DNA of 64,000 nucleotides from Erythrobasidium yunnanense (lineage: Eukaryota; Basidiomycota; Cystobasidiomycetes; Erythrobasidiales; Erythrobasidiaceae). The stretch's first letter is position 1. Each line of letters opens with the position of its first letter. The notes under the pieces were generated by a model, which saw nothing but the letters and a program-made list of their open reading frames with translations, was not told where the DNA came from and did not search any database. The DNA lies in NCBI GenBank assembly GCA_001600175.1, contig BCJC01000001.1, positions 886,065 through 950,064 of the forward strand, read 5' to 3'. The position numbers and the translations under genes were made by a program. Shown here piece after piece: positions 2,483-60,042 of this stretch.

Positions 2483-3301
2483 TCAAGTGGATGTCTTGTC
2501 TCCGCCGAAGAAAGCCCTGCTAAGCCTGTGTCGTGTTCCCCCTCCTCGGACTGCACCGTTGCTTCGGGTCGTGGAGGTGTCGGTGGTGTTGATTGATGTG
2601 ATACTTGTTCGAGGTCCTTTCTTGGCAGACATGCTCATGACGGATTTACTGGAGGCTGTTCGCTGCGGGCTTCGAACTGCGGCTTGAGGTGTCTGTTTCT
2701 GGACTTCAGCCTTTGTCCTCATTGCAGCATTTATTTTTGCCAATTCGAGAAACGCAAGAGCGCTTTGCTCGGCTGAAATCGCCTGCTTGCGCTGAGACGA
2801 CTTGGCAGCTAATTGCGCCTGCACTTTGGCATCCTGTTTCGTCTTGTACAGTGCCAGTCGCTCCTCCAAAGACCGGGGTTTGATCATCCATTTGCCCTTC
2901 ATGTTCTTACTAGCCAAGACTTCCAGACCGTCCAGACTACCGATGTACTTCCCGAGTACGTAGCCGGGATCCTGCCTCTCACGACTACCAACGTAATCGG
3001 TTGACCCTCTCGGATCTAAATCCTGGAAATTGACCAAAGAGTACTCCCACTTATCCATTCTGTCTGCGTTCGGTTTCGATTCATACGCGGTCCATTTGAG
3101 ATTACGTCTTTGGCTTAAGTGGCCTCTTCGCTTTAAGGTCACGACAAGCTCCCCTTCAATGTGCCTGTAGTAGTTCATATTGGGAAGTTTTTAGATGTGA
3201 CAAGATCGTTCGAACCCATCAGGAGTGTATGCAACGATATCGAGCTTGCACGGATTTGACAAGGACCGGTTTGCCGGAGAAAAAGCGATTGTGTGGTTCA
3301 T
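2483..3301 (-). pseudogene. Family A protein, copy A2, interrupted by an in-frame stop
   Basis: The frame starts at the ATG at 3299-3301 (MNHTIAFSP) and reaches the family block DGFERSCHI. It then meets TAA at 3191-3193 and continues in the same frame through ELVVTLKRRG, KWEYSL, DPGYVLGKY, GKWMIKP and AKKGPRTSITS to the normal end. In A3 the equivalent codon encodes Glu, so one base change from GAA would give this TAA. Translation could restart at the Met encoded at 3176-3178, giving a 231-residue N-terminally truncated product. Otherwise this is a recent pseudogene: the downstream frame is fully open, so decay is young or selection persists on the short form. Confidence 0.65.
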
Positions 3302-4048: not shown

Positions 4049-4858
4049 CTAGGCCGCCGTACCATCTCTGTTCCTGTGAAGGCGAATTTTGCTTAGCAGC
4101 CTGCCATGTTTAATCGAATTTGACTTTGTAGCGGATGCGGGCCGATTTGAGGTAGCCGAGGTGTTATTTGTAGAGATGGAAGTGATACTTGTTCTAGGTG
4201 TCTTCTTTGCAGGAATGCTTGCGACTGAGCGTACAGAAGCACCGGAAAGCTTTCGAGAGTGGTTCAGGGCACCACCACCCGTTTTTGCCGATTCGATGAA
4301 GGCCAGAGAATCTTGCATCTGCTTGTTACGAGGTGCTGCAGCGGCCTCTGATTCCTTTCGCAGCTCTTCTTGTCCTGCCTCATACAGTGCTGCCCGTTTG
4401 CTTGACGAGATCGGCCGGATCAGCCACTTGCCCAACATGTCTTCACTCGCCATAATCTCCAAGCACTCAAGATAGTGTTCATATTGCCTGATGAGCCAGC
4501 CGGGATGGCGGTGTAGCTTACCCTCCTTACCTCTGACCGGGGGGCCCCCTTTGACATCGATGTCTGAGCTTTTGTTCACTACCGAGTAGTGCCAATCTGT
4601 CGCCATGTCTTTACTCATGGGCTCATTGCACTCATTAAGCCACTTGCCAGCGCGCAGCACTCGTGTAATAGGCTTGCGGCCCCGTCGGGCCAGGGTTACG
4701 CTGATCTCGCCCGTAGCTTCATTGACGACAAACCCCTCTTCATAGCAACGTGGACGTGTGTGTATCTCGATTCTGCACGACCGCTCGGTACCGTCTTGCG
4801 TGTACGCCACAGGCGAGGTGGTGGGTTTCGTTGATGAAGTTGTTGTCCGAGCGTTCAT
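4049..4858 (-). CDS. Family A protein, copy A3
   Basis: Single-exon frame of 269 residues from the ATG at 4856-4858 (MNARTTTSST). An in-frame ATG at 4946-4948 would add 30 residues, but it lies in the region homologous to the A0 upstream DNA, so the inner start is preferred. Blocks: DGTERSCRIEI, ISVTLARRG, DWHYSVV, HPGWLIRQYEHYLECLEIMAS, GKWLIRP, DSLAFIESAK and AKKTPRTSITS with TNNTSA after it. The tail is basic (RHGRLLSKIRLHRNRD-like). The copy is intact. Function unknown; I cannot link it to a known fold. Confidence 0.7.
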   Translation of the reverse strand: MNARTTTSSTKPTTSPVAYTQDGTERSCRIEIHTRPRCYEEGFVVNEATGEISVTLARRGRKPITRVLRAGKWLNECNEPMSKDMATDWHYSVVNKSSDIDVKGGPPVRGKEGKLHRHPGWLIRQYEHYLECLEIMASEDMLGKWLIRPISSSKRAALYEAGQEELRKESEAAAAPRNKQMQDSLAFIESAKTGGGALNHSRKLSGASVRSVASIPAKKTPRTSITSISTNNTSATSNRPASATKSNSIKHGRLLSKIRLHRNRDGTAA

Positions 4859-5775
4859 AGTGGATGATCTTTCTACCAGAGATAAGATACGTATTGGTTG
4901 TGAATTCAAAGGGGGATGTGTGTGAAGTGAGCTGAGATGGGACAGCAAGAGCAGCTGAAGGTGAGACTGTGCGAGTTGAGGTTCACAGAGTCCACGGTGC
5001 AGTCAAAGGAAAGTGAACACTTGAGAAGGACGCCAAGGGAGTCATGCGCCCACTTTTGTAAGTTAAAGCGGAAGTCATCCAGCGCCCGCCTGTAAGCCAG
5101 CTTGCCAGATCATGTGGGGGGGTGTAAGCCTGCGGCAGCCAGCAGGAGCGCCCGTCTAACGCGGGTTGACGGACGTTCGTGTGTCGCTGCTTTTGATACG
5201 ACTTGTTGTGGCTCGAGGTGGGATTTCGGCTTTGTGTACCTGCGGATACGAAGGAAACTGAGGCTGCCGCTCTCAGAAGCTTGAGCGATGAGTCCCCATA
5301 CACATCACGTCAGCCAGTTTCGCTTGGACGTTCCGACTATGCATTCTCACCGAAACAAACAGCCGAGCAACCTATTCACATAGTGAGCTGGGTGTTCGCG
5401 TTGGAGCTCCTGATTGCTCGAGTCGGGCGATTGTTGCTATTGTTGATCTTGAATGTAGACAGAAGAAATAGAGAGGTGATGTGTCACTGGAGGGAGGTAT
5501 TCCCCTTGCCTGCGCGTGAAGAGGTACTTTCAGTAACAAGGGAGGTTCCGCCTGTATCATCTGTGAAGAACAGAATCGAGTCGAGTGATGAGCGCTGGAG
5601 CAGGGAGCTCAAGGAACCTATTTCGAGGTAGAACTACTGTAAACAAGCGCGTCAAAGTCGCAGGAGAATTCGGAAATGCGCCAGTGGGGTTTGTAACATC
5701 TTTCCGCGCTTTAGGATGGAGAGCGCCTCTCGTGTACATACATACTGGTGGTCGAAGCGCATGTATCTCGCAGAT
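4859..5775. promoter_or_regulatory. Upstream region of A3, then empty spacer
   Basis: Positions 4859-5130 repeat the A0 upstream region, including the GAGATAAG element at 4880-4887. Positions 5131-5775 show only short frames with no recognisable content and include the 3' flank of the NDUFB8 gene. Confidence 0.5.
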
Positions 5776-32803: not shown

Positions 32804-35540
32804 TCACGCAGAGGTATAGTCGCCAGCGAGCAGATCGTCCTCGGTCCTGGCGCCCAATCTTCCAAACTCTAGAAGCAGTCTGAACATATACGCTGCAGCA
32901 ACTCTTGCATCAGTACATCATCATCATCTTCCTCATGTGATAATGCTCACCTTGCATATCCTCCTCCCTCCAATGATGCTGTGCCCACTCTTTACCTTGC
33001 AGTGCGATTTTCTTCCCAAGCGCATCATGCCCTTCATCCCCATTCGGGCCTCCGATGAAGAAGCCCAAAATATCGTATAGATCTGTGTAGTCTACTTTTA
33101 CGGGAATAAAGTGGACCCAAGGCATGATTCGCTCTTGGTACCATTCGGGCATGATTGTACTTTTGAGAATCGCGCTGTTGGATGAGAGAAGTCGGTGGAA
33201 ACGCCCAGACCAGCCGTTGCCGTCTGCAAAATCAACAGGCACTGCGTCAGCCTTCACGCCTCAGGTCGATGAGAATAAAGTCGGGCTACGTACCCATGTC
33301 GAAGATGTATTTATATTGATTAGCTTCCTCCTGGCCCATTCCGGCTTTCCACTCGAATACCCTCAGGAGCGCATCACACGTTCCATCGCCCTGATCGCAC
33401 TGCGCAGGTCTGCCTGAGAAGCCCACGTCTGTATACCTTTCGTTGATATCGACAATGGGCTCCGCGGAAGCTCGTAGAAGACCATCCTCGTCTGCGTAAT
33501 GGACGACTTTGTCGCCTGTCGTTTCAGCAGTCACTAGTCACACGCGCAAATCAGCTAGAGGCCCCAAAAGAAGAAAAAAGTAAGGAGGAGACTTACTTAG
33601 AACCAATCTGGCACGCTGAGAACTTCTCCACCTCGATTCTCGTGTGAAAGCAGCACCGGTATTTGAGCCTCTCCAGAGAAGCTTGTTATACCTCTTATTC
33701 TCCCACTCAGGATCAGGCCCTACGGGAAGATAGTACTGCTCAAGAGGAGTGACGAGAATATCGGAGTGCAAGGTGGTTTTGGACCATGTGAATAAGGGAT
33801 AGAGAGGTCCCATGTGCGGGCCGTTCCTGTAGCAGGTCACGTACTTTGTCAGTAATTGTGTGGTATGGATGATGCGTGGACAGAGGTGTTTTACCAGAGG
33901 AAGAAGCCATGCTGAGACGCCAAATTAGGGTGCTTGCACACATCTGCTGATTCCGATACGTCCACCACGAAGGAGCTGCACACCGCTCACTTTTAGCCTC
34001 TGCGCTCGTGCTGTTGACTGGTGAGATATTGCGTACTGTGTAGAAGGTTTCTGAACATCCCAGCCAGAAAGCGAGTTTCGCCAATGCGAAGCTGGTTGAC
34101 AAGCAGCCGTGAATCCGGGGCTGTCATAATTTCCGCAGGCATCAGTAACTAGACCTGCTCTTAGAGATAGCTAGAACGCAGACACACAATTCTGCTGGGT
34201 TGTGGATCTGGTCAAATTCGTCTTCTCGAAGGACTGTGATACCAAGCAATGAGCATCTAATATCGGTGAGAAGGCGAGAGATAGGGGAAGAGGGACTCAC
34301 TACGCCCTTCTCGTGCTGTATCCATGTAGCGCTGCCTTCCTTCGCCAGAGATGATGATGCCTGGTCCATCATGTGCTGTGAAAGTCGCTCTGGGGTCGAG
34401 AATCACGTCAGGGCCTGAAGCTTAAGGTATTCATGGAAAAAGAATTGCGACTCACTTCAGATCCGGCAGCGATGCCGCAAATGAATCCAACAATTCCGAA
34501 ATCTCCACTGCTCTTCCCATCTCTTTGAGGGGACCCGTGATGCTCAATTTCCCTTGCTCAATATTGATAGTGAACGAAGCTTGCGAGTGTTGGAAAGTGG
34601 GATCTGCTGCCAATTTATGGTTTCTCGCATTAAACACTTTCGGCGGAAGAGCCAAGAAAGGCTGTATGTCCTTATTTATCATATCGTATTCATCTATCAA
34701 TTGAATGTTGTTCTTGGTTGCGAATTCAAACCATTTGTCGAAGCCTTTCGGAGGAGAACGCTTATACCGCCGCTTGTATTCGGAAACAGCACTGTCGAGC
34801 GTCGTGCTCTGGCGAGAGAGAAGATCTTCCCACTTCTTCTCGGCTTGTTCTATCAAGTGGAGAATAGGGTGTCGTTGTGCAGGCTGTCCTGCTCGAGCAG
34901 CGGATACTCCGCCTGATGAATGCCCATTGTCGTCCAGACCTGCTGGAGGAAAATAGAGGAGTCCGTCTTGGAGTGTATAGTCTTGGTGGGGTAAGAGGGA
35001 GTGTGCTGCTGCATTCAGATTCTTGTTACCAGATCTCGATAGGAATCTTTGTGCCCAGTTTGTCTTTTCTGGAGCTGAATTGAGGGAAGAAGGAGAGGAA
35101 GGAGTAGTTTTGGAGGGCGATCTAGTACTGGAATTACTGTCGTCCAATCGATTGATAGGCGCGAAGAGCCACCCTAGGATGAAGAATGGCACAAGCAGGA
35201 TGACGGGTACTCTTGTCCTGAAGAGAGCCGGCAATCTCAATGCTGCGAATCGAGTAGACTGACTCAAGGAGGGAGGATTCTGATGTTGGCCATAGTTTGC
35301 ACTGCTTCTTCGACGGAGATCTGTAACTCCTGGGGATAGGGACGTAGTGCTGCCAGCTGCTAGGACATTGAGCTTGCTCGGACGCCGTGACATGGGAGAG
35401 GCCATCGCGACGAATGAGTGATGGGAATAAGGTAGAACAGAAGCTGTCAGTCCATCATTAGTGCTTAACGTTGCTTTGGCTGCTGACAGCTCCCCCAGTT
35501 CCAGGGCTGACGAGAAAGGCAAAAGGGCTTGCATGAACAT
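32804..35540 (-). CDS. GT90 (CAP10-type) glycosyltransferase, minus-strand copy
   Basis: Type II Golgi membrane protein. A cytosolic Ser/Pro-rich N-terminus leads to one membrane anchor (VPVILLVPFFILGWLFAPI), a stem, then EKKWEDLLSRQS and EYKRRYKRSPPKGFDKWFEFA, the hallmark entry into the CAP10 domain. Later exons give IDEYDMINKDIQPF, HDGPGIII, HPNLASQHGFFLW, YNKLLWRGSNTG (the conserved W-R-G-S-x-T-G), KYIFDMDGNGWSGRFHRLLSSNS, PEWYQERIMPWVHFIPVKVDY and YVFRLLLEFGR-like MFRLLLEFGR. GT90 includes Cryptococcus CAP10 and xylosyltransferase Cxt1. I used the ATG at 35538-35540; in-frame ATGs downstream (MASPMSRRPS) are alternatives. Its paralogue lies head-to-head. Confidence 0.85.
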
Positions 35541-35985
35541 ACACTCTATCAGGACGATGATTGTGCAGGGTCAACATCAACATTACATGCATGTAGATGA
35601 GATGCAATGTAAACAAGCGCGAAAGCTGCGTTCAAGCTGGACCGGGGCGTCCTTCTCATTTCCAGCTGCTTCTTCTCGTTCGCAAGCTGTCAATTGCTAT
35701 CCAAGCAATGCATATCCTGTTCCCACGTATAGTATCGTCATCCTAGGCTTCCTTTATCCCTGTAATGCCCATCTCCCGACCTCTTTTCAAGCTCAGGCCG
35801 GTCCAAAAAGCTGCAGGCAGGTCTGGCTCTTTCGAGGGATCCCTCGCAGCTGGACTGAGCGTGAGAGCAATGCGTTGATGGGCTTTATAGCACATTCTCC
35901 TCGTCGTTGTTTCTTGTGTTGTCCCGCTTCAACCTTTCTTGCATCAGTCGTTATCTGTCCAAGCTTGATTTGACTGGATTATGCC
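35541..35985. promoter_or_regulatory. Divergent promoter between the two GT90 genes
   Basis: 445 bp between opposite start codons. It probably drives both glycosyltransferases; no specific element recognised. Confidence 0.45.
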
Positions 35986-38900
35986 ATGTCGATGTCGCAC
36001 TCGCTGTCGCTGCCACAGCAGGGACAGTCGCCATTAGCACCACCAGAATCACCAGATAACGAGAAGAAGCGATGGAGCAGCAGCGTCAATCCAGCAGGAA
36101 ACGGCGAACGAGCTCCAAGGAGATCCAGCTATGTCCATGTGAATGGAGGGAGCAGTAGCAGCAACAACGACAGGATAGTTGCACCATCATCACAATCAGC
36201 ACAATCTCCTGTGCTCCATCGCGAAAGAGCGACTTCGTTGGAGCATCAGGGACTGATTGGCAGTTCGAGCAAAAACGCGAGCATCAACGCGAATGGCAGC
36301 GCAAATAGCATCGAGAACGACCTTCTAGCACACTCTGAACCATATGCAAATGGTGTCGCAAGCTCAAGCTCGCCCTACAGCAAGCGCGACTGGCCTCAAC
36401 GCGCTTGGACATCTTCAGAACCGGCAGCAGGGCCATCTACATCAACATACACTCCCCCATCACCACAATTACAACAACACTCTCCTGTTATGCGCTCAAA
36501 TCCGAGCTTGCCTTCAATCTCTCCCTCCCCTATTTCTCATGCGGCCCCTGCGACATCCCAAGGTAGCAGTAGTGGCAGCAATAAGCGTCTGCTTACAGGC
36601 GCACGCGCATGCTCTCCGTCATCATCAATTCCTTCGTCTCCCTCAACACGTCTTTCCCAACTTCTATCAGCTCTGAGCGAGTCTCTTCGCGGTATTCTCC
36701 CTTCTTCTGGCCCAAAACGAGTGCGCACACGTATACGACGTCTTCTCGTCCTCTTAGCAACAATAGCTCTTCTATCCTATTTCTTCGGCAACACCTTACA
36801 AACAGCCTATCAGTCCGCCGCGACTCTACGGCGGCGAAGCGAGTATGCTGATCTTGCTCGCGAGGAAAGGGAGCGTCTAGGACCACATATATCGGAGTTG
36901 AAGAGACATCCGATAGAGGAGCTGATGGAGAATGCGAAAAAGGAATGGGAGGAGAAAGTTGAAAGACAGAGCAAGACGCCTGAAGAAGGGATAAAGGAAT
37001 ATAAGAGGAGATATAAGAGAGATCCACCAGATGGGTACACGGAATGGTTTGAGCATGCCAAAGGTGCGCATCACGCTTTTCCTCTCTTTCCACTTAACGA
37101 CGTGTTTTCACAAAACTGATTTGCGTTCTCCCAGCATCCGGCACTATCTTAATAGACGAATATGATTCCTTGATGGCTTCTCTAGAGCCTTTCTGGGCGA
37201 TTTCAGCAGCCGAGCTTCGTCGGCGCACCTTTCAAATCGGGATGCAGCCCTCTTTCGCCTTAGTGCACGTCGAAGAAGCTTTCGACGCAAACAGCGGTGG
37301 CACGTTCTGGGACGCCAACGAAGATGAAGAACTCATAAAACCATTTGGAGTGGAACGAGCTAGGGGGTTCGAGAGGATGGTCAGACCTTTCGTCGGCAAA
37401 CCGGGGATCGTAAATATGGTCTTTGCGATCAATGAATTGGCGGAACCGAGGGTGTTAGTCCCTTGGGAAGAGAAGGAAATGATCAAAGAAGCGCTAGCTA
37501 CGAACACGAGTGAGCAGCGTACAAGGATCTCCTCAGAGACACGGCATGGGTGGAGCTGACCAAAAGTGATTTGTGCCAGCTGTAAACCTTCGACAGTTCA
37601 CCCAGCTTCCAGGCAAACAACGTCAATTCTTCCCTGATCCCGTGTGGAAAGGCGATGGCACTACATGGGAGCATTTCATACGGACCTGTCCACCCTCCAG
37701 CGCAGCTCGGAAAGTATATACTACAATGACGAACTCCGTCATTCACCTAGCGGACGTCGTGCACGTCGCATATACGAAGTCGCGCCATGGGATACGGGGC
37801 AAGAAGAATAGAGATATCGTTCGAGAAACGCTCGAAGAAGGGGAGAATGTGAAGGTTGAGATTAACCCGAAGAGGAAACCGAAGAGGAGAGATTTGAAGC
37901 AGATCATGGAGAAATTGGCAGAGAAGAGCCCGCAGGCCGTACAGGGCATAGAGGATCGCGTCACAGCCGTATCACCAGATTCGGACACACAAATGCCAGT
38001 CAACGGAGAAGACGGCGAAGAGGAAGCTAGACCAGGCCAAGATGGATTCCCTACGAACGACGCTTTCTTACAAGGCCAATCCTTCCAGTTCAATAACAAC
38101 ATGACTGGCATGTCGCACGATATGCTATGCAACGACCCGAGGCTACACGATACGCAAGGACAGTTCTGCTCGGACTTCAGATCGCTAGACTCGCTCTATC
38201 CCGTCTTTTCGCCCAGCACAATGCCGGGCTTCATGGATGTCGTTATCCCGAGCCGTAAGTGGCGTCCTAACTGCCCTACCCGTACAGCGATGCTGATGAG
38301 ACGAGGGATATCGCAGACTATTACGCAGCAACGGGTCCCAAATACCACTTAGCAGCGCATATCAAGAAGATCAACAAAGCAATCAAAGATCCCGCGACTG
38401 ATCGCTGGATCAACGTGTTTGAAGACGAACCTCTTCCTGCATGGGAGACTCGCAAGAACAAGATCTTCTGGCGCGGAAGCACGACTGGCGGAGGGAACAA
38501 CCCGGCTGGACGACAATTGCAGTATCAGCGACATCGATTCCTGAGAATGACGTCTGAAGACTCGGATGATCCCATAGAAGTTTTATTACCTCCCGCTTCT
38601 ACTTCGAATTCCTCGACTACAAATGCAGACGACTCATTGACGCTCGTTGAGCTGCCCTCGAAATTGGTCAATGAACAGACTATGGATGTAGCATTCACGT
38701 CCCTCGATGGATGCGGACATGAAAAAGTCTGTGATGCTGTAAAGTTTGGCAAGTACAAGATGGGCAGGAAAGTTCCCCTCATGGACATTACGAAATACAA
38801 GATGCTCATTGATCTGGACGGTAAGTACCGCACAACGAAAGCTACCAGTGCTATGTACAAGACGCTGATAATCCGCGTGTATCTGATTGTACAGGCATGG

Positions 38901-40064: not shown

Positions 40065-42882
<2,818 letters not shown>

Positions 42883-44130
42883 TCAATAGACTGTCATCGT
42901 CCCTGTTTCTGCACAAGAAGAAGCGTGTCCAGCAGCACTAGAACTTATTTCCGGCCAAGGTTTAGAATGTACTTGATACGCAGCTGAAGTCGTGTTTTCT
43001 TCACATGAGATGCAGTGATGTTGGGATGTATGGCTTTGTGCCGCGTTTGAGGTGAAGGAATGTGTCGCGCTCCCATCGGCTGCATTTGAGACATCAGAGG
43101 GATAAGGTCGAGAATACGTTTTTGTCGGTGCGCTAGTATGCTGGCTAGCGTGAGAAGCGTAACCGTTCGCGCTCGAAGAGGGACCTGTCAGCCCTCCTGC
43201 TCCAGCGGTCGAAGTAGGAGTAGAAGCAGAAGAGCGTGTCGTAGTGGATTTGATTGACTCTTCATATCCTGTCCCGAAAGAAGGGTGCCCACTCTGGCCA
43301 GGCGTCCAGTATATCGTCTGAAGAGCATGCTCAACTCCCTCGCTATCTGAGGCTGATGTCGGAGGGGACTGGGCTGTACCGCTGTTGGTCTTCGTAATCG
43401 TCCTAGTACTCGTAATCTTGCTCGTCGAGGTAACAATGGCTTTCGAGGACGTCGTGCATGTTTCAGTGGAAGAAAGCTGTCCTTGAGAAGCCGATCCCGA
43501 TCCTGAAGAATGAGATGGCTGTGATGAAGCTGTCTCGTGTGGCATAGCTGTCCCACTTGTATTTACAAGGCTGGACTGCCTCGCAGTCCCTGATTCGGAT
43601 GATCCCGCAGAAGGGTTCGTAGAAGGCGTATCAGAGGGCTGCTTGGTAGACGTGCTTGATGATCCTTCGAACAAAGACGACGTAGAAGATGTCGATGCGC
43701 TGCCGGTCACTGTAGCTGTCTCAGTAGCCGTCTTTGTCCGAGTAAGTGTCGTGGTGATCGTGCTGGTCAGGGTCGATCTTGACGAAGCAGAGGCAGTCGC
43801 TGAGCATGTAGCTGCGTTGCCTCCTTCCGCTAGACCGCTTCCAGTAGGAGTAGCTGCATGATCCGCCGTCTGCGAGCCGGACCCTATGTGCTTCCCAGTT
43901 GCTGACGCTCCAGTCTGAACAGTAGTCGAGGAGGTTGTAGCAGTATTTGATAACGTCTTGGTGATGGTGCTAGTGATCGTGCTTCTAGAGCAGCTCTCCT
44001 CAGCCGCTGCAGCTACGAGTGTCGAAGAGAAAGAGAGTGCAGCCAAGACTATGAGTGATAACAGGCGAGGATGACGCTGCCGACGGTAGGAAGGAGACGC
44101 TTCGTTCAGCCAGGAACGAAGTGAGACCAT
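42883..44130 (-). CDS. Secreted Ser/Thr-rich (mucin-like) protein
   Basis: Single-exon frame, 415 residues, starting MVSLRSWLNEASPSYRRQRH with a hydrophobic stretch LLSLIVLAALSFSSTLVAAA (about residues 24-43) that can act as a signal peptide. The mature part is dominated by Ser, Thr, Ala and Gly. It has three imperfect repeats of a Cys-led S/T block: CSRSTITSTITKTLSNTA, then CSATASASSRSTLTSTITTT, then CTTSSKAIVTSTSKITST. Heavy O-mannosylation is likely. There is no C-terminal hydrophobic tail, so a GPI anchor is not supported; the end is CAETGTMTVY. Probably a wall or secreted glycoprotein. Confidence 0.75.
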   Translation of the reverse strand: MVSLRSWLNEASPSYRRQRHPRLLSLIVLAALSFSSTLVAAAAEESCSRSTITSTITKTLSNTATTSSTTVQTGASATGKHIGSGSQTADHAATPTGSGLAEGGNAATCSATASASSRSTLTSTITTTLTRTKTATETATVTGSASTSSTSSLFEGSSSTSTKQPSDTPSTNPSAGSSESGTARQSSLVNTSGTAMPHETASSQPSHSSGSGSASQGQLSSTETCTTSSKAIVTSTSKITSTRTITKTNSGTAQSPPTSASDSEGVEHALQTIYWTPGQSGHPSFGTGYEESIKSTTTRSSASTPTSTAGAGGLTGPSSSANGYASHASQHTSAPTKTYSRPYPSDVSNAADGSATHSFTSNAAQSHTSQHHCISCEENTTSAAYQVHSKPWPEISSSAAGHASSCAETGTMTVY

Positions 44131-45657: not shown

Positions 45658-46723
45658 ATGACCAAATCTGCCCTCGCGACAGTCGCAGCTCTGCTAGCCA
45701 GCAGCATCGTAGCAGTCAGCGCTACACCAGCTATCACATTCCCAGTCGCGTCCTCCAGCTGCGCCGGCGACAAGAGTGAGCCCATCCCGTCTCTTCGCTG
45801 TACTGTATTCTTTGCGCACAGATCCCTGAAACTCGATGATCATTGAACAGAGTGCGGACCATTCAAGTGGCAGGTAGACGACTCTGTCGCTCCTCCAGCT
45901 GCAGACTTCGGAGAGACCACAGTTGGCATCTATGTTGGTTCGGTGGATCAGCAGATCCTCCTCCTCGGACTTGGGTCCGTGCGCGACCCATCCAAGGTCC
46001 TCGAACTTGATTCAGTCACTATTCCAGGTGCGTTCGTCGATGCTTATGGTAACAGAATGATGGCTAATGATGATGTGTACTGGAATAGCCGACTTGGGTC
46101 CGAACGGCGACTTCTAGTGAGCTTGATCAACAGCGGTCGCATTTCAATATGGGATATCCTGGTTGACGTTTGTATGATGTGAATTAACAGCTTCATCCGC
46201 ATGGAGTCGACCCGCGCCAAAGATCCAGATACCGGTTTCCCTCTCCAAGCTTTCTCAGCCAAGTTTTCGTGAGTCCGGCCGAGTCGTTGACAATTCAAGG
46301 AAGGAAGGAGTAGAGAACTGATAACATTGTTATGACGTCGCAGCTTGACGGGCATGACTGGAAAGCTCTCCGCCAGAGCCCAAGCCATGATTGACGGTAA
46401 AGCTGGCGGTATGTCCCTTTCCTTCTTGCTAGAATTTGTAATATCTTCCTGACATGTCTTCATCTTCTTCTCTCCTAGCTTCCGGTCCAGCAGTCGTTTC
46501 GGGCACTTCTACCAACTCCGCCTCTGCGAAAGCCACAGGTCTTGGGACCAATGCCAACAGCGGAAGTACCAACAAGCTTGCTGCTGCTTCGAGCAACAAT
46601 AGAACGACAGTAGAGGCGGATAAAGAAGGCGCGGCTGCTCGATCGACCGTGATGGGCGCTGGAATCGTCGCTTCTGCTGTCTTGGCGGGAGTCGTAACCC
46701 TCATCGCTGGAGTCGCTCTTTAG
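45658..46723 (+). CDS. Secreted, probably GPI-anchored protein
   Basis: Signal peptide MTKSALATVAALLASSIVAV. Four introns join CAGDK to KCGPFKWQVDDS, ETTVGIYVGSVDQQILLLGL, then DLGPNGDF, FIRMESTRAKDPDTGFPLQA and LTGMTGKLSARAQAMIDGK. The last exon is Ser/Ala/Asn-rich (SGPAVVSGTSTNSASAKATG) and ends in a hydrophobic tail VMGAGIVASAVLAGVVTLIA with GVAL, which is the pattern of a GPI-attachment signal. A small Cys count and a beta-rich core are typical of fungal wall proteins. No specific function known. Confidence 0.7.
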
Positions 46724-51905: not shown

Positions 51906-52583
51906 ATGAAACCTTCCACTGCCCTCGCTGCCGCAACTGGACTCGCCGCAGTCGTAAGTGCTAGAGCAATCCCTGCTGCAGACACAAAGCATGCAATAAG
52001 CGTCCGTACAAACATTTCTGGTGAGCCGTTTATACCGTCCCGTGGTCTGCCAGATCCTGACACACCGTGACAAGCCGCTTCTCCGCCTGCTCTGTCTCGC
52101 CGATCCCGTAGCGTGGATCTGCGTCCGCTATCCGATGGCACCCTCAGCACGGGCACCAGGCAGCAAAACATAGACGCTATCTCTGTCAGCATGACACCGC
52201 CGAGTGCACCAGATGCTAAGCGAAAGGCTCGATCGGCTAGCACCACTTCTACGAAATCTACCAGATCTCGCTCGGCTAGCGTCTCGTCAGCCTCATCTGC
52301 CAACGCGAACAAGTTTCAGCACCTCGTGCCGCGGGTCATCGTCCACAGTAATAGTGACGGAAGGTACCTGCCTGACAACTCCACGTGCCCAGAGACAGGG
52401 ATCTGGGACACGCGATGGCATCGTTGCCGCACCGAGCAAGATGAAATAAAAGAACGAGAAGATGCTGCAAACAAAACAGAGCTGGAGCGACGGGTCATGA
52501 TCGGCGTCCCAACTGTGCTCGGCGGCGTCGCTGTGCTGGGCATCGCTGGCCGTTGCGTCTACAGGATTAAGAGGGGATACTAG
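51906..52583 (+). CDS. Family B protein B1 (signal peptide, Cys motif, one membrane segment)
   Basis: Two exons, about 207 residues. Signal peptide MKPSTALAAATGLAAVVSAR. After an intron ending GACAAG near 52077 come a basic Ser-rich region (SRRSRSVDL), the block ISVSMTP, and a linker RKARSASTTSTKSTRSRSAS. Then follow DGRYLPDNS and the motif CPETGIWDTRWHRC with TEQDEIK after it. The membrane segment is VMIGVPTVLGGVAVLGIAG, ending in YRIKRGY. Layout predicts a type I membrane protein with an extracellular basic linker and a very short cytosolic tail. First of seven paralogues in the array; closest in its N-terminus to B4 and B5. Function unknown. Confidence 0.75.
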
Positions 52584-52863
52584 CGATCGCGAATGATCCC
52601 GGCCTGGTCTCTGTATGTCAAGCGATCCTTGGGCAGCTTTCCGATACCCCCTCAATCTTGTGGGCTCTCTTGTAGCAATGAGACTTTCTGTGATCAATAT
52701 CTAGACTTTGGGATGTTGTGTCAGATTACGGTATCCTGGGCGATATGAAACTGCAGCTCTTTGAAACAACCCGCTTACCTTTGCTCCAACATCTCAAGCC
52801 GCAAGCTTCAGATGCTGTGACAATTCTGGAGCACGACAGACTGATATATCAGAGGCGATCATT

Positions 52864-53870
52864 ATGTCAGGCAAACCACCATCCCATACTCTTCCCGCAG
52901 ACTACACGCGCGGAGTTGCGTACTGGGAAACACAGGCGCCGACATTGGATGGTGTTCTAGGAGGATATGGCAGCCTCACTCGCATCGACGCTCTCTCATC
53001 GCGAACCTTCATCCTCACCGTATGTCCCGGGCTTTCCAGCATTGCTGCAGCATCCACTTCAAAAAGCAGCGAAGACAGCTTACAACCACAAAAGAAGCGT
53101 AAAAGAAGAGCTCTAGACGTAGGATGTGGGATAGGAAGGGTCAGCGAAAGCGTCCTCGTCCCCTTGCTGGACGAAGTGGACCTCGTAGAGCCCGCAGACC
53201 ATTTCATTCGCGAAGCATACAGAGCAGCGACTGCAGGAGAGTGGCGATCATTAGAGAAAGCGAAGCAACAAGATGGTCAGAGTAGGCATCTAAGGTTCTA
53301 CAAGAAGGGATTACAGGATTTCCACCCTGCCAAACGGGAGAATGAAGGCTTGATAGAAGAACTGCACATTGGAGAAGCTACACAAGAAGAGCCACAGCCA
53401 GGCTACGACGTGGTGATGTGCCAATGGTGTTTGGGGCATCGTGAGTCGCCTTAAGTCACGCCATATTGCGCTGAAACTCGAGCATCTCCGCAGTGTCCGA
53501 CAGCCAACTTGTCACCTTTCTTGACGAATGCAAAGCGTCACTCAGGAATCCAGGCGAGAGCGTAATCATAGTCAAAGAAAACACTACACGCGTCGGAACC
53601 CGAGAATACGATTCACAAGATCATTCGTGGACGAGGTAAGACTGCCTTCTATTGACCAACGTTATTCCTCATCGTTGTTCATGCTCCTTTCGCAGATCGA
53701 AGACGCTATTCCAGGACATCTTCGCAAAAGCCGGCTTGAAGGTCGTCAGAGACGATGCGCAGAAAGGCTTCCCGAAAGATCTCTTTCCAGTGCACATGTG
53801 AGTACACAAGGATGCCTATCTACGTATACGGCTTGTCTGATGATGCCATTGCAGGTGGGCTCTTCGGTGA
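52864..53870 (+). CDS. TAE1: N-terminal Xaa-Pro-Lys methyltransferase TAE1 (NTMT1 family)
   Basis: SAM-dependent alpha-N-methyltransferase acting on proteins with processed X-Pro-Lys N-termini such as ribosomal proteins Rpl12 and Rps25. Starts MSGKPPSHTLPADYTRGVAY. Motifs: YWETQAPTLDGVLGGYGSL, RIDALSSRTFI, RALDVGCGIGRVSESVL, VDLVEPADHFI and VVMCQWCLGH; after introns LSDSQLVTFLDECKASLR, VIIVKEN, SWTRSKTLFQDIFAKAGL and FPKDLFPVHMWALR. The last intron (about 53801-53853) splits the Met codon of PVHM. A low-complexity Ser/Lys insert sits before the SAM motif. Embedded between family B members B1 and B2. Confidence 0.87.
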
Positions 53871-54291
53871 TGGCCAGGGATCTGAACAAACCGGGGACTC
53901 TAGTCGGCGATGTACAGCAGCAGCATAGTTTACTAGCATCTTTTATCCCAATCGGTGGTGTGTTCTCATACTAACACTCTATTCCAGCACAAGTTGGCCG
54001 GGTAAGCTGATCCATGTTGACCCTCCGCAATGACAGGTTTACGAATCCCAAGGAGCTTCAGCCGCTTACATGTTCAAGTGTTGCCTTGCAAGATACGACA
54101 GGACGAAGCACCCGTTGTACACGCGCTTTCACATCGACAGACAGTAAACCTCCCCTTGTGCTCGAAAACCCTGTCGACTTGCTCACCCGTGCAAGCTGTT
54201 GGCCGCCTCTCTCTGTCTCTCTCTGCATCCGCAAAAGTATCGCAACTCACGGACATACTGCGTCAATCTCGCTAGCATCGACAAAGTCGAC
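53871..54291. other. Intergenic region TAE1-B2
   Basis: 421 bp holding the TAE1 3' flank and B2 promoter. A TC-rich tract (CTCTCTCTGTCTCTCTCTGC-like) lies near 54206-54226, about 65-85 bp before the B2 start. Confidence 0.4.
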
Positions 54292-54945
54292 ATGAGAGCT
54301 TCACACATCGCTGCTGCAGGACTTGGAAGTGTGCTCGTGGGTGCCGCCACTCAAGCTACTTCGACCACCGCCCGAAACGTCGCTGCCGCGTCTGAAACAC
54401 CAAGTAAGCAGGCTAACAGGCAAACAGTCATCATCATCGTAGCCAACTCTCATTGTGCAGCTACCAATCTCTACCGAGTGCCACGCACCAAATCTGGCTC
54501 AGCAGCTGGTGACACTGTACATGCACGAGCGGAAGGGCGAGATGGTCCTGTGATCAATGTCCGAATGACTCCGAAGGACGGCAAACGCAAAAGTCAAAGA
54601 GCCCGCTCAGTAAGCGGTGCATCCGATAAATCAGCAGTCTCTAACGCCTCGGTTCGTGCAAACGAACGAGATGAGCGCTTCAAACCTGATTCGAAATGTC
54701 TCGAGACTGGCGCATATGACACCCACCTCGATCGCTGCATCAAGCAAGCCGATGTCAACTCTGGCAACGAAATTCAGAAGCTTGTCTGAGCGAATGAGCA
54801 ATGTCACAAAGACACCAGATTCTACCGAAATATGGGATGGACCCTCATCGGCACCAATTTTCTGCTTGGTAGTGCTTTATTGGCACCGACCCTCGCAGAT
54901 TGCGTTCGCATAAGACGAGCTCGTGCTCAAAAGGCTGGAGTCTGA
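54292..54945 (+). pseudogene. Family B protein B2, stop codon before the membrane segment
   Basis: Signal peptide MRASHIAAAGLGSVLVGAAT; after one intron come VINVRMTPKDGKRKSQRARS and DERFKPDSKCLETGAYDTHL with DRC, then EIQKLV and TGA at 54787-54789. The same frame continues past the stop through WTLIGTNFLLGSALLAPTLA and CVRIRRARAQKAGV, matching the membrane segment and basic tail of B3, to a second TGA at 54943-54945. B2 therefore either encodes a secreted form without anchor or is a young pseudogene. N-terminus and tail are closest to B3. Confidence 0.65.
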
Positions 54946-55336
54946 GCATACTGTCAGCGCTCTCAAAGCTGGTGTACGATTTGTCAAACGAGTGCTCAGG
55001 TGCTCGCAATGATCGTCAATCCTACTGAAATACCTCACCGATGGCTTACTGGTGCCCAGAACTGACTCCTTCACCCAAATCCAAACGCTAGGTTCTTAAA
55101 GCCGCTCATCTGATCAGCAACTCTAGGAAGCCTTATCGAAAACTCGCACGTCCTGTAAGTACGACAGCACACAATAAGCACTGCTCTTGCTGACTTCAGA
55201 TACAGTCAGGCAAGCATCAGGCATCGCCCTTCTGGCAGGCTTTTCTGCCCAACTCACGATGAATCGCTTCTTTCGTTTCGACTTTCACATCCGCTTCCAG
55301 CTCAAATTCGTAACGTTTCTTCATTATCAGCAAATC
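54946..55336. other. Intergenic region B2-B3
   Basis: 391 bp, presumably the B3 promoter. No feature recognised. Confidence 0.35.
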
Positions 55337-55963
55337 ATGAGAGCATCAAAGTTCGTAGCCGCAGCCGGACTAGGTGGAGCAGTCACGCATGCACTGGCAC
55401 AATCGACCGGGCGCGATGACTCGACCATCAGCGGCGTTTCAATGTCACCAGGTAAGCCACTGAAGAGCCTGTGGACTTACTAGAGCTGACTCAGCCCGCT
55501 TTCATCTTGAGTTCCTACGACTCTTGCCCGAACAGTATGCGTCTCACGCAAGCCCGATGACCAACCTGTCAGCGGTATCTATGCACAAGGCGGCCGCGGA
55601 CGAGGATGACTCTCGATGATCGACGTTCGCATTACTCCGAAAAGCTTTGAAGGCAGGATGAAGAGACCCCGCGGCCGTGCGGAAACTCCAACTGGACCAT
55701 CAGCAGATCGCATCACCAAAAGAGATGTACGCCTCGATGCTGATACGGATGCTGAAAACGCCATACAGAAAGCAGATGCAGTCACCGACAGACGCAAGCG
55801 AGACTATAAGGCACTTGACAAGAAGTACAAGTTGACCCTCGGAATCCTTGGCGGCAGTGCAGCACTGAATCTGGTTTCCGTTGGCACGTTTGCCGCTCCC
55901 CTCACCGCAGAATGCGTACGAAAAAGACGAACTCGTGCTCGTGCTCGGGCTGCTGCTGTTTGA
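55337..55963 (+). pseudogene. Family B protein B3, in-frame stop and degenerate Cys motif
   Basis: Signal peptide MRASKFVAAAGLGGAVTHAL. After an intron of about 90 nt the frame reads CVSRKPDDQPVSGIYAQGGR and then TGA at 55607-55609. It continues in frame with MIDVRITPKSFEGRMKRPRG, ALDKKYKLTLGILGG, a membrane segment LNLVSVGTFAAPL and a tail CVRKRRTRARARAAAV. The C-x-E-T-G motif that marks the family is missing; DRITKRDVRLDADTDAEN stands in its place. Stop codon plus motif loss make a pseudogene likely. Confidence 0.6.
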
Positions 55964-56285
55964 CCGGGACGAGCTGTAAGGTTCACGTGTACGCGATGAA
56001 CCTCGGTAATCTTTCCTACTACTCACATGCGACAATGTGCCGTCAATACTTATCAAACAAAAACCTTGGCGTGCCGAGGTTTGCAAGCAGCCTTTCACTC
56101 CGTCCCTTGATCACAAACCACAGAGCCTTTCTTACCAACTGTGTGAGGTCCGGTTCTCGATGTGAATGAGTCAGAAAGGCCCTTTCTTTCCAGGGAGACA
56201 ATCGCTTAAAATCCGCCGTATAAGTACCCCAAGTTCCGGATCAAGCGTCTGCTCTGCTTTCAACTGAATCAGCAACAGTAGCAAG
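55964..56285. other. Intergenic region B3-B4
   Basis: 322 bp, presumably the B4 promoter. No feature recognised. Confidence 0.35.
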
Positions 56286-56918
56286 ATGAGACCCACCGCT
56301 TTCGTCGCTGCAACTGGCTTCGCTGCCGCAACTAGCGCAAGAGCTATACCAAGTCAAAGTCAAGGTAAAGCCGTTCTCATCAATGGGACCGATGTTGGTG
56401 GGTGATCTGGTCGATACGTTCATAGGCAGCTTATTGACGCTTCAGCAGCAGAACCATCGACCAGCACCGTGCAAAGACGAGCGAACAGTTTGGGCTTAAC
56501 TAGAGGTGCACGCATCGATAGTGCAATCCATGCCCGCACACCGGACGACACCATTGTTGTCAATATGACTCGATCTAGTGCTCAAGACCCGCGTCGCAAG
56601 TCCCGCTCAGCCAGCTTAGCATCAACAGCGTCCGGCGAGGCAACTGCGATGCACAATCTCGTGCGTCGAAAGAACAACAACGGCTACAGCAACGGCGATG
56701 GACGATACGTCCGTGACGACAAGTGCGCCGAGACTGGTATATGGGACACAAGCAAAGGCCGGTGCAAGACCAAACAAGATGACATCGATGCAGCAATCAA
56801 GGCCAAGAAAGAGGACCGCACTAACAAAATAGGCATCATCGCCACTGCGTCTATCTGCGGCCCGATTGTTCTCGGCGGAGCAGGTTACGGGCTATACAGA
56901 TGCTTCAGACGTCGATGA
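56286..56918 (+). CDS. Family B protein B4
   Basis: Two exons. Signal peptide MRPTAFVAATGFAAATSARA; intron from about 56366 to a CAG near 56446; then a stretch with QRRANSLGL, the block IVVNMTRSSAQDPRRKSRSA, LASTAS, DGRYVRDDK and the motif CAETGIWDTSKGRC followed by KTKQDDIDAA. Membrane segment IGIIATASICGPIVLGGAGY with a tail LYRCFRRR. Intact. It shares RRANSL with B5, its nearest relative. A representative, undamaged member of the array. Confidence 0.75.
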
Positions 56919-57350
56919 GCGTCCAGAACCAGCAGAGGCAGGAAGGTTAAAAACTCTCGACTGTTGTGGGTTGAGTGTTGGCTCATATGAGAATCTCTAA
57001 GACAGCCGCGAAATCTGAAGAGACTTGCGACGAGGCGCCGGCAAAGGCCGGCATTTCCTTGAGTCTAGAACACTACGGTGGTCGCACCCATCAGTCTTCC
57101 CTGCAGATACTGGCAGACGCCAATACGAGACTCTCGTCAATCGAAGAGTCTGTACGCACCTGACGATCACCGCGTCGCCTTCTGACAAGTTCAGCTGCCC
57201 TCGCAAGGCTTGAACAAGTCGACATCACTCGAGCGCGTACTCGAGACGGAAGGCTGGATGCACGCCAAAACCACGATGCAATGATTTCGCCTTTCACAGT
57301 TGAAGGTCGACAAAGGCCTCTTATTGCGACCGTAAGACCTTTCAAGCAGC
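56919..57350. other. Intergenic region B4-B5
   Basis: About 430 bp. Several short frames but no gene. An in-frame TAA at 57333-57335 closes the B5 reading frame upstream. Confidence 0.35.
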
Positions 57351-58044
57351 CCTGGCATCAACCCACTTATCGCTGCAACAGGCGTTGGCGCATTTGCGAG
57401 CGCTCGGGCGCTACCCGTTGAAGCTGCTGGCCGGTCAGTGGCTTCAAGAATGAGAACGCCCGGTGAGCCTTGTATATCGTTCCTCAACAAGCCGAATACG
57501 CTGACTTCATTGACAAGGCGTTTCGGCAACTACCCTGAACCGGAGAGCAAACAGTCTAGATGTCCGCAATCCACCCTGTGCAAAGAGGGCACACCGTGAT
57601 GCTCCTGTCATCGATGTCAGCATGACTTCAACAGGCAGTCGACGCCAATCTATCAAAGCTCGCTCGGGCAGCGCTGTGTCCAGCTCTCCAGGCCGCGCCG
57701 CGAGGACCGAAGAACGCTACAGAGCATCCTGGAAGTGCCATGAGACTGGAATACATGACAACCTGCAGAATCGTTGTGTGACGAAGCAAAACATGGAGAC
57801 GCAACCTTTGGCCCAGAAGCTGCTAAAAGACTACGAAGACCTGGCCCAGCTTCATCTAGAAGAGGTGACCGCTAACGACCAATTGCGCCGCACTGTGCGA
57901 ATCCAAGATTACGGCCTAAAACTCGGTCTGGTGTGCTCGGTGAGCTCACTGCTCTTAAGCAGTGGGGCTCTCAAATGTGCGACCAAACAGTTCAAGGCTG
58001 GGAGCCGCGAAAGACGTGGAAGTCAAGCTTCTTCTACATGCTGA
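57351..58044 (+). pseudogene. Family B protein B5, start codon apparently lost
   Basis: The open frame has NPLIAATGVGAFASARALPV, which aligns with the signal peptides of B1 and B4. No ATG precedes it in frame: codons reach back to TAA at 57333 without one. The position matching the B4 start codon is CCT at 57351. Downstream the gene is intact: an intron (about 57461-57520), RRANSLDVRN, VIDVSMTSTGSRRQSIKARS, EERYRASWK, CHETGIHDNLQNRC with VTKQ, a longer helical segment (KLLKDYEDLAQLHLEEV), a membrane segment LKLGLVCSVSSLLLSSGAL and a basic tail. Use of the first in-frame ATG, near 57447, would remove the signal peptide. Confidence 0.55.
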
Positions 58045-58426
58045 GCACGGTCTTAGCATCTAGGGCATCCAGCAAGGATACTTGTCACACTTCTATCTTT
58101 TTGTGCTTCGACTTGTGCTTCATGCCTCTACACATCTAGAAAGCACGGCCCCAAAGGGCGCTGAGACAATGCTAGCTAGCTCTCGCTAGCCTCTGTACTG
58201 GTAGCTTCATCCGCTCACAAGCAGAGGCCGCACACAACATGAAGGCACGGATAGTCTCCATTACCGCCTTTCATGCTCCACCTTTTCAAGGGTCAGCCTT
58301 GCAAGTGAACCGGATCATAAGGGCTACTGAACAAAGGTTCTAGCGCTTTAAAGCCCCCAACTTTCCCACTACCCTGTTCTCCTCACACTCACACAGACAA
58401 GACATCTTCAGACTCGGTTCAACAGC
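58045..58426. other. Intergenic region B5-B6
   Basis: 382 bp, presumably the B6 promoter. A short palindromic-looking string GCTAGCTAGCTCTCGCTAGC lies near 58171-58190. Nothing else seen. Confidence 0.35.
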
Positions 58427-59076
58427 ATGAGAGCAAGAGACATCATCGCGGCCGCTGGCACGGCTGGAGCTTTGGTCAACTGCCAAGCTACACAACCTTC
58501 AACCTCTCTATCGAATGTGACACGTAATGGACTGAGTAGGTCAGCTCCACTTGCTATCACACATTGTACTGACGTCGATCCTGTAAAGCCGGCACCGAGG
58601 CCTTGTCGCTCAACGTGGATGGCAAATGGTCCAAATGCACAACTCCGCAGCTCGCTCTGTCCAAGAATCAGGATGCAGGCATCATATCTGTCAATATGAC
58701 TGGTCGATCCACGAAACCTCAATCAGTTAGCGCTCCGCCAGTTTCCACTGGCAAGTCTATCAAATCTGGTGACGATTCTGGCACGGTCGGTAAGCAGGGG
58801 AATCCCAGATACATCGCTGCAGACAGGTGCCCCGGGACCGGCCAATGGGATGCTAGGTACGGTCGCTGCAGGACCAAGCAAGATTACCGCGCTGAAGACA
58901 GGGAACGCCGACGTAAGGTGCACAATGTGGCTGTGATAGGGGCTCTAGCAGGCCTCACATTGACCAGCGCTGCGGGAGCTGTAGCAGCTGGTGCTGACTT
59001 GCGGCGTCTCAAGCAGGAGGAGAAACGACTGGGAATGCCAGTATCTCGGACTGGTGGCCGGAAGAAGTCGGAGTAG
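58427..59076 (+). CDS. Family B protein B6
   Basis: Two exons. Signal peptide MRARDIIAAAGTAGALVNCQ, then TSLSNVTRNGL before an intron of about 58 nt (58531-58588). Then SLNVDGKWSKC, the block IISVNMTGRS, a Ser/Lys linker, NPRYIAADR, the motif CPGTGQWDARYGRC with RTKQDYRAEDR, a membrane segment NVAVIGALAGLTLTSAAGA and a charged tail RRLKQEEKRLGM ending GGRKKSE. Intact. Closest to B7 (shared TSLSN.TRNGL). Confidence 0.75.
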
Positions 59077-59351
59077 ACTTTCCTGTACCAGTTTGAAAGC
59101 TTTGCTGTCGCTGAACTCAACGTATATTCACGACAAGACATCTGCTCGAAGTGAGGTCTGAAAGATGTGGCTGATTATCCATGCGATGGACCTGTTGCTC
59201 AGGATCTCCACTTCAGCTAATGACATTGTGAGCTTACAAAGGGAAAAGGACTTGAAAAGTATTACTTGGCCAAAGGAGAGGGTTTCAGGATTGCAGGCGC
59301 CCGTCGCCCAGAGGCTCCTGCATCCTGTCCGAACGAAGAACCGTGAGAAAC

Positions 59352-60042
59352 ATGAGAGCTACCAACTTGATCGCAGCCGCTGGCACGACCGCAGCTCTGG
59401 TGAACAGTCAAGGTGGTCCGCAAATTCCGACTTCGCTTTCGAACTTAACGCGCAACGGGCTCGAGAGTACGTTCATACTCACGTTTCAGTGGCCTCTATG
59501 CTGATGTCGCCATTCTTATAGCTGGAGGGAACAATGTTCCATCGCTTAACTCGTACGGAAAGTGTGATCGATCTGCAGCTCCTCAGCTGCAGCCAAAGCA
59601 TCAAACCGAGTGCCCAGCCAAGGCCATCAGAGACTGCGGTGATGGGCGAACGTATAGCGTAAGCTGGCCTGCACCGGCTCACTCCAATGGTCCAAAACTG
59701 TCGGCGAGCCCTCGCCCCCGTCGCGGATGCCGTGGTGTTATACGTACTCCACAGTACGTACGCGACAGCACATGCGAAGAGACGGGCTTCGTCGATACGA
59801 GCACGAAGGATGGCCGCTGCGTCGATAGCCAGTACTTTGTGGATCGTCGTGCTGAACGCCAGAGGCAGGAGAAGCGGCGGGATCAGCGTATGGTCTTTGC
59901 AGGTGCGGTGGGGTGGACATTCGCTTTGGCTGCTGCTGCAGGAACTGCCTATGCTGGCGAAGCAAGCGACCGGAGACAGGGAGGAAGTCAGCGAAGGGCA
60001 TCTTCGGCGTCCCAGACCAGCGGACGTCCACAGAGAGAATAG
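59352..60042 (+). CDS. Family B protein B7
   Basis: Two exons. Signal peptide MRATNLIAAAGTTAALVNSQ, TSLSNLTRNGLE, intron about 59467-59520, then GGNNVPSLNSYGKC. The middle is more cysteine-rich than in other members (CPAKAIRDCGD, RRGCRGV). The motif is CEETGFVDTSTKDGRC, two residues longer than elsewhere, then a basic stretch ERQRQEKRRDQR, membrane segment MVFAGAVGWTFALAAAAGTA and a Gln/Arg/Ser tail. It lacks the I-x-V-x-M-T block of the other copies. Intact. Confidence 0.7.

Follow-up and report, generated by a model that had tools for sequence, protein, structure and literature searches.

What kind of proteins does the cluster of look-alike reading frames at positions 51906-60042 of an Erythrobasidium yunnanense genome segment encode, and do they form one family? 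The window, i.e., the whole stretch of DNA analyzed here, comprises 64,000 nucleotides of contig BCJC01000001.1 (positions 886,065 to 950,064 of the forward strand). An earlier note on this DNA had described the cluster as a tandem array of seven signal-peptide/membrane proteins sharing a cysteine motif that it could assign to no family. Our analysis revealed seven related plus-strand loci, B1 to B7, with a common two-exon layout; judged by their sequence, four look like intact genes (B1, B4, B6, and B7) and three like disabled relatives (B2, B3, and B5). We favor, with moderate confidence, an explanation in which these loci represent an old, locally duplicated birth-and-death family of probably type-I single-pass proteins carrying a membrane-proximal disulfide hairpin.

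Seven related loci of one family

Family membership was assessed with leave-one-out hidden Markov models (HMMs), which were run against every stop-to-stop segment, in all six frames of the window, with a length of at least 25 residues. The left-out exon 2 ranked just below the six training members in six of seven cases, with expectation values (E) of 1.5e-19 for B1, 6.5e-11 for B2, 2.8e-19 for B4, 5.8e-14 for B5, 4.9e-15 for B6, and 7.9e-5 for B7, the next other segment lying at E 0.07-1.5. When B2 or B4 was left out, this next segment was the remnant of B2 that follows its stop codon (54790-54942; E 0.37 and 0.07, respectively). Exon 2 of B3 was missed by its leave-one-out profile (E 8.2, rank 24). 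The left-out exon 1 was likewise ranked in six of seven cases, at E values between 7.5e-8 and 0.018 against 0.11-0.67 for the next other segment. The first exons of B1, B3, B4, B6, and B7 were recovered at E 3.9e-5 or better; that of B5 was marginal (E 0.018 versus 0.11 for the best other segment), and that of B2 was missed (E 24). B3 is assigned to the family because its exon 1 matches (E 3.9e-5) and its tail is 86% identical over 35 nt to the tail of B2, which forms part of the B2 remnant.

Pairwise shuffles gave a comparable picture: for 12 of the 21 pairs in exon 2, and for 10 of the 21 in exon 1, not one of 200 shuffles came up to the observed value. The exon-2 pairs of B3 were weak, four of the six lying at chance level and the remaining two being reached by 3 and 4 of 200 shuffles; also weak were the pairs of B7 with B1, B2, and B5 (7, 10, and 31 of 200). 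Since all weak exon-2 pairs involve B3 or B7, these two members are tied to the family by fewer features. Full profiles detected no eighth copy in the 64 kb, the next segments lying at E 0.58 (exon 1) and 0.11 (exon 2). At a minus-strand DNA-pattern match (46223-46239), the six-frame protein scan showed no loop motif.

Gene models and apparently disabled copies

Exon 1 codes for 26-38 residues with a hydrophobic core and is signal-like. It is followed by a phase-1 intron in all seven loci, the phase in B3 and B5 being derived from their exon coordinates (Table 1). For B6, an intron whose 3' end reads AAG was chosen because exon 2 then starts in register with that of B7.

Disabling features were found in three loci. 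In B2, an in-frame TGA separates the Cys loop from the membrane helix, beyond which a helix-like segment and a tail continue in the same frame. B3 carries an in-frame TGA upstream of the conserved block described below and no longer has the loop. The frame of B5 is open throughout; its ATC at 57357 is aligned with the ATG of B1 and B4, and no in-frame ATG was found between the preceding stop and this codon. These defects may instead reflect sequencing error or an unseen upstream exon.

As a result, the seven related plus-strand genes of the earlier note stand as seven related loci, of which only four are intact from the ATG through the membrane helix, and its count of seven proteins is too high, since B2, B3, and B5 look disabled. 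The local clustering was recovered as well, but the array is not uninterrupted, because a same-strand methyltransferase gene (from 52864) splits B1 from B2.

Table 1. Positions within the window of the family loci B1 to B7, their Cys loops, and the unrelated gene between B1 and B2 (KD, Kyte-Doolittle hydropathy; aa, amino acids; ORF, open reading frame)
Feature	Position	Strand	Details
B1, apparently intact	51906-52583	+	exon 1 51906-52020, intron 52021-52074, exon 2 52075-52583; 207 aa; hydrophobic segment KD 2.04
B1 Cys loop	52386-52427	+	
N-terminal (proline) methyltransferase-like gene, first coding ORF; not a family member	52864-53454	+	Pfam Methyltransf_PK, E 3e-26
B2, apparently truncated	54292-54789	+	exon 1 54292-54403, intron 54404-54460, exon 2 until TGA 54787-54789
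B2 Cys loop	54697-54738	+	upstream of TGA 54787-54789
B2 remnant downstream of stop	54790-54945	+	same frame; membrane-helix-like segment (KD 1.41) and basic tail
B3, apparently disabled	55337-55963	+	exon 1 55337-55451, putative intron 55452-55535, in-frame TGA 55607-55609
B3 beyond TGA		+	open frame with IDVRIT block and membrane-helix-like segment, without Cys loop
B4, apparently intact	56286-56918	+	exon 1 56286-56364, intron 56365-56445, exon 2 56446-56918; 183 aa
B4 Cys loop	56724-56765	+	
B5, without start codon	57357-58044	+	exon 1 57357-57462, intron 57463-57517, exon 2 open until 58044
B5 Cys loop	57736-57777	+	
B6, apparently intact	58427-59076	+	exon 1 58427-58535, intron 58536-58588, exon 2 58589-59076; 198 aa
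B6 Cys loop	58828-58869	+	
B7, apparently intact	59352-60042	+	exon 1 59352-59466, intron 59467-59521, exon 2 59522-60042; 211 aa
B7 Cys loop, C-x14-C	59773-59820	+	four extra cysteines upstream of loop

Shared protein features and predicted structure

Exon 2 encodes, in this order, an I-x-V-x-[MI]-T block, a basic Ser/Thr-rich stretch, a Cys loop, a glutamine, a hydrophobic segment, and a basic tail. The block is present in six of seven loci, B7 being the one without it. The loop, C-x-[EG]-T-G-x-x-D-x(4-6)-R-C, also occurs in six, as C-x12-C in five and with x14 in B7, and is missing from B3. Its C, T, G, D, R, and C columns are invariant across the six loop-bearing members, and a glutamine stands three or four residues past the second Cys in every one of these loops. 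The majority form of the resulting module of ~25 residues reads R-Y-x-x-D-x-K-C-x-E-T-G-I-W-D-T-x-x-G-R-C-x-T-K-Q-D. The earlier description of these elements (a block with Met in six of seven members, a Cys motif with x12 spacing, lengthened in B7 and lost in B3, and mostly a K/E-Q nearby) was confirmed, with Ile as an alternative to Met in the block and with the Q itself in all six loops. The six-frame protein scan detected one copy of the motif per protein. Upstream of the loop, Ser and Thr together make up a fraction of 0.16-0.31 and Lys and Arg 0.13-0.23 (taken over the first 50 residues in the loopless B3). In the four intact members, the C-terminal hydrophobic segments reach KD values of 1.52-2.04, and the basic tail comprises 10-31 residues.

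AlphaFold2 modeling of B4 exon 2, based on an alignment with one wrong-frame B7 row, gave a model of poor overall quality, with a mean predicted local distance difference test score (pLDDT) of 60.1 but 86-87 around the loop. A fold prediction for the Cys-motif region, which the earlier note had called for, was made from a 40-residue core with six correct-frame rows (mean pLDDT 82.4; predicted template modeling score, pTM, 0.50) and shows a hairpin and a helix: strands at residues 6-8 (YVR) and 17-19 (IWD), a two-residue strand at the RC of the second Cys, and a helix at 28-39. A Foldseek search with the B4 exon-2 model returned no match at E 10, and the core model gave nine matches in the PDB (best E 6.4) and five in BFVD (best E 5.2), none of them significant.

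History and divergence of the copies

The members had been sorted by their N-termini into B1/B4/B5, B2/B3, and B6/B7, and the array was proposed to have grown by repeated local duplication. Exon 1 reproduces these groups, with shuffle z-scores of 6.3-11.4, 8.8, and 17.8, respectively, B3 and B6 being also close (6.5). The highest exon-2 scores belong to the non-neighbors B1-B4 (z 31.5) and B2-B5 (z 16.9), and B6 is about equally close to B4 (13.8), B7 (13.5), and B1 (12.8). Such mixed pairings of exon 1, exon 2, and the tail, the last shared by B2 and B3, suggest recombination or conversion between copies. The sorting therefore holds for exon 1 and fails for the exon-2 pairs B1-B4 and B2-B5; local duplication is retained, but the differing exon pairings and the high synonymous divergence speak against repeated duplication as a full account. 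Of the two exons, the first shows the greater similarity in 16 of 21 pairs, at the extreme in B6-B7 (69% versus 26% identity), a comparison in which exon-1 identity is inflated because this exon is short and Ala-rich.

The proportion of synonymous differences (pS) ranged from 0.53 to 0.88 over 42 exon comparisons and was at least 0.70 in 30 of them; differences of this size indicate that the copies are old. The proportion of nonsynonymous differences (pN) was below pS in 41 of the 42 comparisons, exon 1 of B5-B6 being the exception (0.56 versus 0.53). This pattern is consistent with copies that are, on average, constrained at the protein level, and the rapid change or positive selection implied by the label 'fast-changing' is not borne out. 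An estimate of the ratio of nonsynonymous to synonymous rates (dN/dS) would be unreliable because the synonymous differences are too high.

The word CTTTCA is found within 250 bases upstream of the start sites in six of seven members, a result equaled by 4 of 200 random sets. For common upstream words in general, six word settings were equaled by 0, 3, 4, 5, 21, and 26 of 200 random sets; with as many as six settings applied to related sequences, this amounts to no more than a hint. CTTTCA may reflect either common ancestry or regulation.

Proposed topology and alternative explanations

Under the favored explanation, an intact gene would give rise to a secretory-pathway protein of 183-211 residues, whose signal segment occupies a separate exon, looks cleavable, and is followed by a long stretch that is basic, rich in Ser/Thr, and probably disordered, the ~25-residue Cys-Cys module, a juxtamembrane helix, the membrane helix, and the basic tail. 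The product would be a type-I single-pass protein of the plasma membrane or an endomembrane, whose basic Ser/Thr-rich segment would reach outwards into the wall space, while the putative disulfide hairpin, held on a helical stalk near the membrane, could provide a conserved contact surface for a partner. Because the tail is too short for a signaling domain, binding or tethering would be the more likely role. A part in host, mating, or self-recognition contacts, which the earlier note inferred, is possible.

Several points weigh against this explanation. Hydropathy fits a type-I layout in B1, B4, and B6 and is marginal in B7 (KD 1.52). The numbers of Lys and Arg within at most 15 residues of the outer flank and of the tail are 5/4 in B1, 5/4 in B4, 6/5 in B6, and 8/2 in B7; charge thus does not support the type-I orientation, because the presumed outer flank carries as much positive charge as the tail side, or more. 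Stretches of the R-x-S-like kind, which are more usual in cytosolic proteins, abound in the linker. Moreover, the Cys-Cys disulfide is putative, the gene models of B1 to B7 are predictions, and the constraint is deduced from paralogs, searches of virus and prokaryote collections having yielded no homolog outside the window.

The basic linker and basic outer flank, unusual for an ectodomain, would suit an N-terminal segment that acts as a mitochondrial presequence or stays uncleaved, in which case the basic Ser-rich part would not be extracellular. Exon 1 is indeed Ala-rich, has Arg or Lys at position 2 in the four intact members, and contains few acidic residues; however, the intact members carry a 12-residue hydrophobic core (KD 1.57-2.14) followed by small-x-small sites, as signal peptides do, and we regard such targeting as unlikely. 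It is similarly doubtful that a Kex2-type protease cuts dibasic sites in the Golgi so that the part with the Cys loop is set free and secreted in soluble form, with the helix serving only as a retention anchor. Among the four intact members, B1 and B7 have KR or RR pairs both upstream of the loop and between loop and helix, but those of B4 lie solely before the loop and after the helix, exon 2 of B6 has none before the loop, and in so basic a sequence the pairs are likely to arise by chance.

The proteins could also be ordinary accessory membrane proteins of the secretory pathway rather than agents of surface recognition, working like Psg1, which, going by its Pfam name, stabilizes Pma1 in the Golgi. 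A weak Psg1 match of B1 points in this direction; it is, however, confined to the juxtamembrane and helix part, and the other six sequences scanned gave no match at E 5, so that we assign this possibility a low probability. Finally, with three of seven copies looking disabled, the array might be largely decayed, most or all copies being pseudogenes and the conserved loop a relic. Four frames that remain open for 183-211 codons across a conserved intron, and six loop residues that are invariant in six members despite the high synonymous distance, make so general a decay quite improbable.

Starting from the old, locally duplicated membrane-protein family that we prefer, a bolder proposal can be made, which we put forward tentatively and do not expect to hold in full: the copies would behave like those of recognition families, diversifying, recombining between exons, and decaying, and the loop would represent a minimal disulfide module of a new kind, with ~25 residues, a single Cys pair, and a stalk helix, placed near the membrane in a lineage-specific surface family. 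Should the family be real at the protein level, it would contribute a small cysteine module not described before among lineage-specific membrane proteins, and gene birth and death could be followed at one compact locus where copies that look live lie next to copies that look dead. At present, it represents a well-defined orphan family, undescribed within the libraries searched, and not yet a mechanism.

Genomic surroundings

Genes in the window have short GT-AG introns and include a crooked-neck/Clf1 homolog (best PDB row at E 2.8e-84), an Arf-type GTPase, DUF3684 and zinc-dehydrogenase frames, and an SMC hinge. This content marks the DNA as eukaryotic, and its gene density and intron length point to a fungus. 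A second local family is encoded on the minus strand (962-1993, 2486-3190, and 4052-5002); its members show 32-39% mutual identity over 161-188 residues, share a C-terminal AKK-x-PRTSITS, and have no Pfam match at E 0.01. Two divergent neighbors, at 34455-35570 (minus) and 35974-37116 (plus), are 55% identical over 53 residues, and their scanned frames were without a Pfam match. The minus-strand frame at 42883-44130 is very Ser/Thr-rich, with a hydrophobic stretch near its start and no Pfam match at E 0.01; it is presumably comparable to a wall mannoprotein. Another minus-strand frame, at 41427-42110, matches NAD_binding_8 and resembles UDP-galactopyranose mutase.

Comparison with known families

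No curated Pfam cut-off was reached by the seven family sequences (searched at E 5) or by the core peptides of B4 and B6 and pieces of B1 (E 10), and no NCBIfam cut-off by the exon-2 pieces of the four intact members; in these searches, the HMMER filters discard most matches above E ~0.1. Other weak rows (Pfam E 0.024-0.32; NCBIfam E 0.013-0.27) were below the cut-offs and inconsistent between members, and were rejected. A six-member core profile retrieved no PDB sequence at E 10. With the B4 exon-2 piece, 9 pattern matches were obtained in viral contigs and 67 in prokaryote genomes, none of which was confirmed, and a literature search by general terms rather than by the motif found no such family described. 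The earlier statement that no family with this signature is known is therefore upheld for the libraries searched, i.e., Pfam, NCBIfam, and the PDB profile search.

The family loop resembles the consensus of the chitin-binding module CBM14 (peritrophin-A) in the Pro or Glu that follows the first Cys and in the aromatic-Asp pair enclosed by the two cysteines. CBM14 was not matched in the Pfam searches of the B4 and B6 core peptides and B1 pieces (E 10) or of the seven family sequences (E 5). In the CBM14 protein Avr4 of Cladosporium fulvum, the Cys86-Cys101 disulfide, whose spacing is similar to that of the family loop, is located at the last two-stranded sheet; of the four Avr4 disulfides, tachycitin retains three, whereas Der p 23 and CHIT1 retain two, and the aromatic ligand residue Trp100 stands just before the last hairpin Cys (PMC6128652). 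In contrast, B1 and B4 have one Cys pair before the helix rather than the two or more disulfides of these proteins, and all six loops have Arg before the second Cys where Avr4 has Trp100; B7, with its four extra cysteines, is not excluded by the number of disulfides. Because the further disulfides (in B1 and B4) and the aromatic ligand residue (in six of six loops) are missing, the loop family was not filed as CBM14.

One B4 peptide matched WDR5: of 47 phmmer rows, 46 represented this protein or its counterpart in the fly, with a whole-sequence E of 1.8e-4 at best. The alignments shown consist of short, recurring IWD-x-x-x-G-x-C stretches, none of which exceeds 7.1 bits singly (E 99 or worse), and WDR5 was rejected because these stretches are short and repeated and a search with the six-member profile gave no match at E 10. 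The IWDTS-GRC of B4 resembles the turn of a WD40 blade hairpin, as in WDR5 and G-beta, and three of nine insignificant fold matches of the core model were G-beta or G-protein complexes; the family differs in having one motif per protein, no repeated blades, and no profile match. We take the WDR5 match to be a chance likeness of a turn.

Psg1 (PF14610) shares with the family a membrane segment near the C-terminus, where the B1 match lies (15.3 bits, E 0.018; cut-off 30.1); this match is gone without the helix and was rejected. In overall arrangement, the locus is comparable with the tandem clusters of small secreted proteins of smut and other fungi, which form local arrays of divergent signal-peptide proteins; the B members are distinguished from them by a membrane helix and a basic tail.

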